Assembly: GCA_938075415.1 (NCBI GenBank)
Contig: CALJHC010000016.1
Span: forward strand, 124,001 to 188,000
DNA length: 64,000 bases
Source: an uncultured Rubripirellula sp.
Lineage (GTDB): Bacteria > Planctomycetota > Planctomycetia > Pirellulales > Pirellulaceae
Direction: 5' to 3'
Positions 17,484-19,148 of the stretch are shown here, piece by piece. The notes under the pieces are model-generated. The model was not told the origin of the DNA, did no database searches, and was given only the letters and a program-made list of their open reading frames with translations. The position numbers were made by a program, and so were the translations under genes. Positions within the stretch are counted from its first letter, which is position 1, and the number at the start of each line of letters is the position of its first letter.

Positions 17484-19148
17484 TTGAGTCTCAAGGCAAA
17501 TCAGATTCATCAAGGAAGTTGTCTCGATCGATTAAAAGAGATAGATCAAGGTTCGATTGATCTGGTTTTTGCCGATCCCCCATTCAATATTGGTTATCAA
17601 TACGATGCATACGATGACCAAAAGAGCTCGGACGAATACTTGCAGTTTTGTGAGTCTTGGATCACCGAGAGTCACCGAGTCTTGCAACCGGACGGATCAT
17701 TTTGGTTAGCGATTGGTGACGAATATGCCGCCGAGCTGAAATTGCTCTCACAGAAAATTGGTTTTCACTGTCGCAGTTGGGTAATCTGGTATTACACCTT
17801 TGGTGTGAATTGCGCGCGCGGTTTCTCTAGATCGCACACGCATCTTTTCCATTTCGTGAAAAACAAAGAGCGATTCACGTTTAACGGAGAGAATCCAGCA
17901 GTTCGCGTCGCATCAGCACGGCAGTTGGTTTACGCCGATGCGCGAGCAAACTCAAAAGGCCGTTTGCCGGACAACACCTGGATTCTTCGACCACAGGATG
18001 TGCCTTCACCGGGTTTCTCCATGTCGCACGATACTTGGTGTTATTCTCGCGTTGCGGGAACCTTCAAAGAGCGCGAAGGATTTCATGGCTGCCAAATGCC
18101 GGAGCAATTACTTGGCAGGATCATACGCGTTTCAAGTCATTCGGGCGATGTTGTTTTAGACCCGTTTGCCGGAAGCGGTACAACGCTTGCTGTCGCAAAA
18201 AAACTTGGGCGACAGTTCTTGGGTGTGGAATTGTCAACTGATTATGTATCCAAGATTCGTACGCGTTTGGATGATTGTGAAGCGGGTGATGCATTAGACG
18301 GTGCTGATGGTCCTAGCAGTGGCGTACCGACGTCAAAAGGAAAGCGACGCAACAAGTTTGTAAATGGCCGACCGGTGATTTCGCTACCAGATGAAGCCGA
18401 GCAGAGTATTATCGATGCGTTTATGGAGTCGGCCGATGGACATTCTGCAGATTATTTGCTTTGTGATCCTGGTTTAAATTCAAACTTTGTGAAGAGTTGT
18501 CGAAAGCGAAGCGTACCCGGTGATCCAAGGTTGTGGAATTCATTTTTGTTGAGGGTACGTAAGTCAGGAAAACTTCCGCGTTCGGTCGCTACCGGGCAGC
18601 GATTGTCAACTCAAGAAATGGATCCGTACAGCGATGCGAGTGAGGTTGCTTCGCGTTTGATGACGTTGGATTACGGCATGACTTTGGACGAGTTATTGTG
18701 CTCGCCAGAGGCGATACAAGAGTTTGACCAAATGGCCCAATCTTTTTCATCTGGTCATAGTTCATTTGAGTACCGCTGGTCTGCTCTTGCTCTGAGAAAA
18801 CGGGCAACCACAAAGCGATTTCGAACCATAGCGACTGAGCAAAAACAACATTGGGCTACGCAGAAACTCCCTCGCCGACGTTCCTTAGAAAGTTGTCTTG
18901 CAAAACAGTATGAGCATTCGGGGGTTTACGCGCTCTTCGATGAGAATTTCCCGGTTTATGTTGGCGAGACGAGTAATTTGCGAGAACGTATTGAGAATGT
19001 TTTAGGCAGCGAGGGCTGGAAGAAATTTAATCCGAATTCGGTGCGAATTTGGCAGATTAGGGAGGAGGTCGAGCAATTTGCTTTACGTTCTTACTTGGTC
19101 ACTAAGGATAAGCCACTCCTTAATTCAGATCTTTTAGTTGCCGAGTGA
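17484..19148 (+). CDS. Beta-class DNA N6-adenine/N4-cytosine methyltransferase fused to a GIY-YIG-like domain
   Basis: A 554-aa protein starting at TTG. Motif IV DPPFN is at residues 31-35 and the AdoMet-binding motif DPFAGSGTT begins at 226, so the order is IV then I, the beta class to which CcrM and M.HinfI belong; the target-recognition part lies between. A basic linker (SKGKRRNKF) leads to ~200 residues I do not recognise (LLCDPGLNSNFV; RLWNSFLLRVRKSGKL). Residues ~478-554 look like a GIY-YIG nuclease: GVY at 480-482, YVG at 492-494, NLRER with Arg500/502, and PLLN near the end. The Glu expected before the final helix seems to be Arg535, with Glu530 the nearest acid, so cleavage activity is doubtful. 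No separate restriction gene lies nearby. Confidence 0.85.
   Translation: MSLKANQIHQGSCLDRLKEIDQGSIDLVFADPPFNIGYQYDAYDDQKSSDEYLQFCESWITESHRVLQPDGSFWLAIGDEYAAELKLLSQKIGFHCRSWVIWYYTFGVNCARGFSRSHTHLFHFVKNKERFTFNGENPAVRVASARQLVYADARANSKGRLPDNTWILRPQDVPSPGFSMSHDTWCYSRVAGTFKEREGFHGCQMPEQLLGRIIRVSSHSGDVVLDPFAGSGTTLAVAKKLGRQFLGVELSTDYVSKIRTRLDDCEAGDALDGADGPSSGVPTSKGKRRNKFVNGRPVISLPDEAEQSIIDAFMESADGHSADYLLCDPGLNSNFVKSCRKRSVPGDPRLWNSFLLRVRKSGKLPRSVATGQRLSTQEMDPYSDASEVASRLMTLDYGMTLDELLCSPEAIQEFDQMAQSFSSGHSSFEYRWSALALRKRATTKRFRTIATEQKQHWATQKLPRRRSLESCLAKQYEHSGVYALFDENFPVYVGETSNLRERIENVLGSEGWKKFNPNSVRIWQIREEVEQFALRSYLVTKDKPLLNSDLLVAE

Follow-up and report, generated by a model that had tools for sequence, protein, structure and literature searches.

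A conserved solitary methylase of Planctomycetota with a tandem helical repeat and a predicted catalytically dead GIY-YIG tail

The GIY-YIG nucleases Eco29kI and Hpy188I are each genetically tied to a separate methylase, and neither methylase is known to have a nuclease-like tail. Eco29kI shows which residues cutting depends on. The substitutions Y49A, H108F and E142A each abolish cleavage; E142A gives neither cleavage nor nicking and still binds its site (Kd 45 vs 16 nM), and H108F binds more poorly (PMC1952068, partial text). Orphan methylases are described as better conserved than restriction-associated ones (PMC4752239, partial text), and the terms planctomycet and pirellul have no match in that partial text. 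Among known methylases, CcrM, MboIIA and the YhdJ type (PRK11524) share the methylase domain, the motif order and the DPPF motif with the protein studied here, and wide conservation across an order is a further likeness, to solitary CcrM in particular. The protein differs from all of these in its C-terminal half, which comprises a tandem helical repeat and a predicted dead GIY-YIG domain, and it scores far under their cut-offs (127 of 830 bits for CcrM, 159 of 292 bits for PRK11524).

Coordinates below are positions in the window, the whole 64,000-nt stretch of DNA that was analysed, and residue numbers refer to the product of the methylase gene, whose layout is given in Table 1. In the product, the motifs DPPFN, DPFAGSGTT, GVY, YVG and NLRER begin at residues 31, 226, 480, 492 and 498. 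The TTG start lies at the same codon in 8 of 14 same-genus rows, the window gene counted in, and ATG one codon downstream is found in three (L018-L020), the last three of the 14 having been mislocated by the script.

Table 1. Layout of the methylase gene and its product, in window coordinates
Feature	Position	Strand	Length, conservation or basis
Complete gene, encoding a methyltransferase, a linker, a tandem helical repeat and a GIY-YIG domain predicted to be inactive	17484..19148	+	554 aa, TTG start; open frame, Pfam, AlphaFold2 model
Residues 1-265, beta-class amino-methyltransferase domain	17484..18278	+	Pfam PF01555, phmmer, Foldseek
Residues 31-34, catalytic motif IV DPPF	17574..17585	+	D31, P32 and P33 invariant in 81 rows
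Residues 226-234, AdoMet-binding motif I DPFAGSGTT	18159..18185	+	D226, P227, F228, G230 and S231 invariant in 81 rows
Residues 266-302, linker, pattern GD.LDG..P..SAP.T	18279..18389	+	Pattern also in methylase-only orthologues, shortly before their end
Residues 303-362, helical repeat 1: four helices, GxSxDxLLxDP...LRKxGKL	18390..18569	+	AlphaFold2 model, repeat test
Residues 383-442, helical repeat 2: four helices, TLDELLCxP...ALxLRK	18630..18809	+	AlphaFold2 model, repeat test
Residues 470-549, GIY-YIG domain, predicted catalytically dead	18891..19130	+	Profile, model, catalytic column
Arg535 codon CGT, catalytic-Glu position (E76 of Thermotoga UvrC)	19086..19088	+	Alignment of free-standing relatives with UvrC

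The N-terminal half is a beta-class methyltransferase, as the original prediction had proposed, and both motifs that it cited, DPPFN and DPFAGSGTT, are in place. The Pfam family N6_N4_Mtase (PF01555) matches residues 25-257 with an E value of 5.1e-54, above the cut-off, and the DPPF/Y motif precedes FxGxG as is characteristic of the class, with F34 nearly invariant in 81 rows. The nearest solved relatives are MboIIA (5.3e-29) and CcrM (1.9e-24) by phmmer, and CcrM (1.5e-16) by Foldseek. With the whole AlphaFold2 model as query, the top 50 Foldseek rows were methylases only; the methylase part of this model includes stretches with pLDDT under 50, for example residues 164-175 and 177-202. A DPPF motif goes with a preference for N6-adenine, and judged by this motif the enzyme probably modifies N6-adenine.

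Between the two recognizable domains, about 200 residues had been called unknown, ending in a repeated DPGLN/RKSGKL-style pattern. This pattern reflects a real tandem duplication. Residues 303-442 are predicted to form eight helices, arranged as two copies of one unit (AlphaFold2, block pLDDT 84-97 over residues 301-440), and the two halves pair at 95.8% hhalign probability (pairwise E 8e-9), compared with at most 33% for five control pairings. The repeat unit has no Pfam match, the best E value among 21 members scanned being 0.029. This middle part of the protein is itself a recurrent module that is also present outside the window gene. In a fold search with the model of a free-standing relative, winged-helix or helix-turn-helix proteins made up several of the top-ranked rows covering the first repeat, at a Z of about 4-5, a level that by the tool's own warning may carry no meaning.

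The C-terminal part adopts a predicted GIY-YIG fold. The Pfam GIY-YIG match to residues 479-511 of the window protein reaches 19.4 bits, below the 22.6 cut-off, and a profile built from 81 relatives matches the GIY-YIG structures of UvrC at residues 471-549 with an E value of 1.1e-5. The AlphaFold2 model gives the order beta-beta-alpha-beta-alpha (block pLDDT 93-97, residues 471-550). The cut-off was reached by four of ten proteins scanned, all four of them free-standing and carrying the catalytic Glu, and a Pfam GIY-YIG match at E 0.001 was obtained for 40 of the 47 free-standing copies. The model of one free relative superposes on UvrC (1ycz) with a Z of 9.9 and an rmsd of 2.5 over 87 residues. 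Profile, model and free relative thus place the domain within the superfamily, in line with the GIY-YIG-like assignment made at the outset. In a viral structure library, GIY-YIG proteins top the list, none at E 0.001 or better.

The active site of this domain is incomplete. The Glu of the free relatives aligns to E76 and their Asn to N88 of Thermotoga UvrC (positions counted from the printed range), and the window equivalents are Arg535 and Asn547; the alignment bears out the expectation that an Arg occupies the position of the catalytic Glu. The two Tyr, the Arg and the Asn of the site are present as Tyr482, Tyr492, Arg502 and Asn547, and the site His (H108 in Eco29kI, four residues after the Arg, R104) is replaced by Val506. 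Glu530 was rejected as a substitute catalytic residue and is no conserved stand-in, since just 56 of the 141 fused homologues have an acidic residue in its column (E 33, D 23). Neither Glu nor Asp appears among the up to eight commonest residues in each column within four of the site (108 fused copies).

The same loss extends across the family. Among 141 distinct methylase-fused sequences, counted after identical tails had been removed and five short-tail matches dropped beforehand, the catalytic column holds Gln (67), Arg (35), Lys (30), Trp (4), His (2), Ala (1), Val (1) or Ile (1), and Glu or Asp in none. Gln thus accounts for nearly half, and a change to this residue, E142Q, features in the title of 3mx4, an inactive Eco29kI structure. 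Free-standing repeat and GIY-YIG relatives carry Glu in 41 of 47 copies, with Leu in four and Ala in two, both of the latter divergent. These 47 remain from 52 'solo' rows after the removal of three contig-end fused fragments (Gln, Lys, Ala), one spurious frame (Thr) and a specificity-subunit fusion (Ala), none of which has Glu. The other site residues are largely retained in the fused copies (Asn547 in 139/141, Tyr or Phe at 482 in 140/141 and at 492 in 139/141, Arg502 in 118/141), whereas the site His is found in 18 of 141 fused and 44 of 47 free copies.

A module tree of 161 rows, built by a quick search and rooted at its midpoint, contains several long branches. It places 44 of the 47 non-fused copies in one supported clade (97), and the Glu state changes twice on it. 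Because so few changes are needed, loss of the Glu would be old and clade-wide, about one event and not 141 independent ones, and a reversal is never seen on this tree. The free form looks ancestral in its chemistry, since free copies keep Glu and His and fused copies lack the Glu and mostly lack the His.

With both Glu and His missing, and given the behaviour of the Eco29kI mutants, cutting of DNA by the window protein is very unlikely, and DNA binding by its GIY-YIG tail is possible. The suggestion that the domain may bind DNA without cutting it stands; the binding reading is weakened by the importance for DNA binding in Eco29kI of the His that most fused copies lack. The fused family offers a testable natural case of a nuclease that may have become a binding part.

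In some relatives the disarmed module is accompanied by an armed one. Counting the distinct fused loci that extend for 400 nt or more downstream (135 in all), at least 11 have a free intact module, called by profile, directly behind the fused gene (L021, L128, L153, L175, L177, L182, L184, L185, L188, L195 and L196); this two-gene type II form, with a nuclease gene beside the methylase, was not found in the window among the six neighbouring proteins scanned. By a first-start rule the spacing is -4 nt in eight of these loci, -1 in L182, and -16 and -23 in L177 and L195, and an ATGA overlap was read directly in four. All 11 free copies have the catalytic Glu. One more pair, L181, is found at the end of a contig, outside the 135 loci. 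Judged by this arrangement, predicted dead and live copies are translationally coupled in some relatives.

Beside the window gene, no Pfam nuclease match was found in the six neighbouring proteins scanned, two of which have no match of any kind. The window's assembly (87% complete) gave one repeat-domain match and no second copy in a search that scored part of the first-look candidates. Downstream (window:19138-21580) lie a kelch protein of the N-acetylneuraminate epimerase type (NANM, E 4.6e-35) and an N-acylglucosamine 2-epimerase (E 2.8e-46), both assigned by Pfam, a setting of sialic-acid type. Two related fused genes are followed by uvrB, 26 nt downstream in one case (L145:5734-7818, Pfam UvrB domains) and recognized by eye in the other (L162); the GIY-YIG domain resembles that of UvrC.

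The methylase itself is widespread, and its C-terminal module is patchy. A match was obtained in 39 of 40 genomes searched. The full-length form lies in one frame in 21 of 22 same-genus genomes, the window's assembly counted, and 18 genomes of other genera hold the fused form in seven, the methylase alone in ten and neither in one. At least 80 loci, the best 80 of 560 relatives, all have methylase and repeat in one frame, and the matches listed include Rubripirellula, Rhodopirellula, Stieleria, Mariniblastus, Botrimarina and other planctomycete records; Rhodopirellula baltica, Stieleria tagensis and Botrimarina hoheduenensis are three of the species represented. Within the order, a methylase orthologue (E 1e-55 or better) is present in 130 of 146 genomes and in 118 of the 127 good-quality ones. 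A repeat-domain match accompanies it in 44 of the 130, of which 39 were counted as fused; the five left out of that tally comprise two with a free copy only (G028, G460), one with a weak short match (G531) and two with contig-end fused fragments (G461, G469). For the repeat domain, matches came from 101 of 346 genomes in the order and from 15 of 392 in the phylum, in searches that score part of the first-look candidates, which makes absences soft. Plasmid and phage collections (tblastn) and IMG/VR, searched with one coupled nuclease, gave no relative. With many orthologues consisting of the methylase only, the predicted C-terminal module is dispensable. The 50 methylase-only proteins that were collected stop shortly after a tail, and in most of them this tail has the linker pattern. 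Fused and methylase-only forms are intermingled on the methylase tree, with 15 changes of which 4 are forced; this intermingling, together with the linker pattern in the methylase-only tails, suggests that the module has been lost repeatedly from methylases.

Wide conservation and the lack of an adjacent nuclease partner mark the window gene as a conserved solitary methylase with a predicted pseudo-nuclease tail, and its descent from a two-gene restriction-modification-like operon, which survives in some relatives, is likely. As a full account, we assign a rough probability of 0.55 to a solitary methyltransferase that arose from such an operon, lost its nuclease repeatedly and kept a dead tail that holds DNA. 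The ancestor would have been an operon of a methylase with a pseudo-nuclease tail followed by an active nuclease, the two sharing one module. Repeated loss of the nuclease gene would have left solitary methylases such as that of the window. The helical repeats and the substrate-binding face of the dead GIY-YIG domain would hold DNA, steering or tethering the methylase; by holding DNA or a partner, the tail may place or limit methylation. In the coupled loci, the live copy would cut DNA left unmarked by the methylase. The tail is best read as a putative pseudo-nuclease kept for DNA binding or partner contact.

An old operon with repeated nuclease loss also appears to be the simplest history. 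The coupled state changes 10 times on the fused-protein tree, 6 of these changes being forced by well-supported branches, and it clusters there no more strongly than labels assigned by shuffling (115 of 500 shuffles gave a count as low); this is a fasttree topology that carries a warning of long branches meeting at L021, L175 and L196. Such scatter, and the small share of coupled loci, are also compatible with nucleases gained independently behind fused genes. This alternative is disfavoured, on 11 pairs, because a single supported clade (99) of the module tree holds 11 of the 12 coupled copies, with the twelfth beside it, while their host genes scatter. The covariation of nuclease and module distances given below likewise speaks for the operon history.

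The main rival to a DNA-holding tail is that the dead copy chiefly makes protein contacts, pairing with or restraining the live nuclease as a heterodimer or immunity arrangement and self-associating where the nuclease is absent, which we regard as somewhat unlikely. Translational coupling of dead and live copies fits it, and so does their covariation. Across 11 pairs, nuclease distances track fused-module distances (Mantel r 0.67; two runs gave p 0.00025 and 0.0004), and the relation persists beyond the methylase in a partial Mantel test (r 0.52, p 0.008); by domain, the partial correlation is weaker, with r 0.43 (p 0.019) for the repeats and r 0.28 (p 0.084) for the GIY-YIG part. Against it, a nuclease is no closer to its own partner's module than to those of others (31.3% vs 32.1%), and most fused genes, that of the window among them, stand without a coupled copy, one repeat-domain match having been found in the window's assembly with part of the first-look candidates scored. 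Gene conversion between partner modules was also considered and rejected, as no sign of it was seen.

A second alternative dispenses with any restriction-modification stage: an ancient regulatory orphan methylase would have acquired the module purely for regulation, with nucleases arriving behind it later. Presence of the methylase in nearly all genomes of the order is what a regulatory orphan would predict, and the scatter of the coupled state on the fused tree is compatible with late arrivals. We nevertheless consider it unlikely, as the free copies keep the seemingly ancestral chemistry, the split between free and fused copies is deep and not one of local duplicates, and the distances of nuclease and module covary.

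Next comes the view that the tail is a non-functional relic, merely tolerated. Methylase-only orthologues are common in the order and interleave with fused forms, and where the two are coupled (11 loci) the fused module shows a lower mean identity than the free nuclease (36% vs 51%), all of which it would accommodate. Selection on the fused genes speaks against it. Among 78 fused-gene pairs more than 80% identical, which are non-independent and include many high dS values, median dN/dS by the Nei-Gojobori method comes to 0.022 in the methylase (71 usable pairs), 0.035 in the repeats (69 pairs), and 0.041 and 0.077 in the linker and the GIY-YIG part (62 pairs each). The predicted dead domain is under purifying selection by this measure, with nothing pointing to decay. 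Together with the retention of the full-length form in nearly all same-genus genomes and of Asn547 in nearly all fused copies, these low ratios make a relic quite improbable.

A working one-protein restriction-modification enzyme, as originally envisaged, with metal held by Glu530 (five residues ahead of the catalytic site) or by a migrated acidic residue, is scarcely credible even though Hpy188I has Lys for the YIG Tyr and Arg is found elsewhere in one family branch (PMC2630997, partial text), since the window lacks both Glu and His, the acidic state of column 530 is not conserved, no acidic residue is common nearby, and the absence of Glu and Asp from every fused copy, in a module whose free copies mostly have Glu, led us to reject an active single-chain (type IIC-like) enzyme on the predicted catalytic column.

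The module also occurs in other settings. In one genome (G487), a type I specificity subunit (L260:8811-11297; Methylase_S E 2.1e-31, PADLOC E 1.6e-94) ends in the repeat and a GIY-YIG-like tail with Ala at the Glu site, and a type I restriction subunit adjoins it (L260:6004-11297). In another (G354), a fused methylase gene is followed by two TIR-domain genes with overlapping ends (L257:5852-8626); the TIR genes (L257:7557-8626) match TIR_2 with E values of 8e-17 and 2.8e-10, and the second TIR protein weakly matches a portion of the repeat domain (E 2e-4). Each a single case, these two loci hint at a defence setting. Five of the 47 free repeat and GIY-YIG proteins carry an N-terminal HicB-family domain by Pfam (L031, L032, L180, L183 and L204, identified by reading the sequences), and Leu takes the place of the catalytic Glu in four of them. 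Many free copies with Glu (L034-L038, L189, L190, L191, L201, L203 and others) have, by eye, a signal-peptide-like N-terminus and are possibly exported GIY-YIG nucleases. Divergent repeat and GIY-YIG proteins with an unannotated N-terminal part were found at L047, L211 and L212, this part being similar between L047 and L212.

Taken together, these features raise a broader proposal, which we put forward tentatively as possible but short of probable: Planctomycetota would harbour a restriction-modification-like family, hitherto undescribed, whose methylase carries a disarmed copy of its partner nuclease as a targeting or licensing domain and is translationally coupled to the armed copy, repeated loss of which would give rise to solitary methylases such as that of the window. 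In this phylum, the module would then serve as a general part for reading DNA, in most cases disarmed where it is joined to another DNA-handling domain. One order contains three forms, namely the methylase with predicted dead copy and live nuclease, the methylase with dead copy, and the methylase alone. These may represent visible stages in the origin of solitary methylases from restriction-modification, an origin otherwise argued mostly from remnants. The repeat module, which has no Pfam match, could help to locate further restriction-modification or defence genes in Planctomycetota. A literature search covering open-access titles and the starts of abstracts, with most subscription papers and REBASE outside its scope, did not find this architecture described.

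Several known systems resemble parts of it. The wH-GIY-YIG type IV enzymes likewise join a GIY-YIG domain to a helical DNA-reading domain; they differ in being methylation-dependent nucleases that have no module in common with a methylase, and the wH fusion genes mostly have no methylase within three genes on either side (PMC11037411, partial text). The DnmA-YeeB-YeeC system of Bacillus subtilis, with an m6A methylase and a neighbour of the T5orf172/GIY-YIG family, is akin to the coupled loci, but its genes are separate with a helicase between them, and the partial text of PMC9973331 does not mention a pseudo-nuclease fused to the methylase. A natural fusion with the methylase N-terminal, as here, is that of a COG4123 methylase with an Slx1-like GIY-YIG domain in Lactobacillales; its methylase belongs to another family ('predicted O-methyltransferase', NPPY), and a middle repeat goes unmentioned in the partial text of PMC1564403. 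RM.Eco29kI is an artificial methylase-nuclease fusion (PMC3039593, partial text). Further parallels are Eco29kI and Hpy188I, in which, as in the coupled loci of the window's family, a GIY-YIG nuclease is genetically tied to a methylase, and the free copies share the Tyr/Arg/His/Glu/Asn site of Eco29kI. In those two systems the active nuclease stands with a separate methylase, whereas in the family described here the methylase itself bears a predicted dead copy of its partner nuclease's module.
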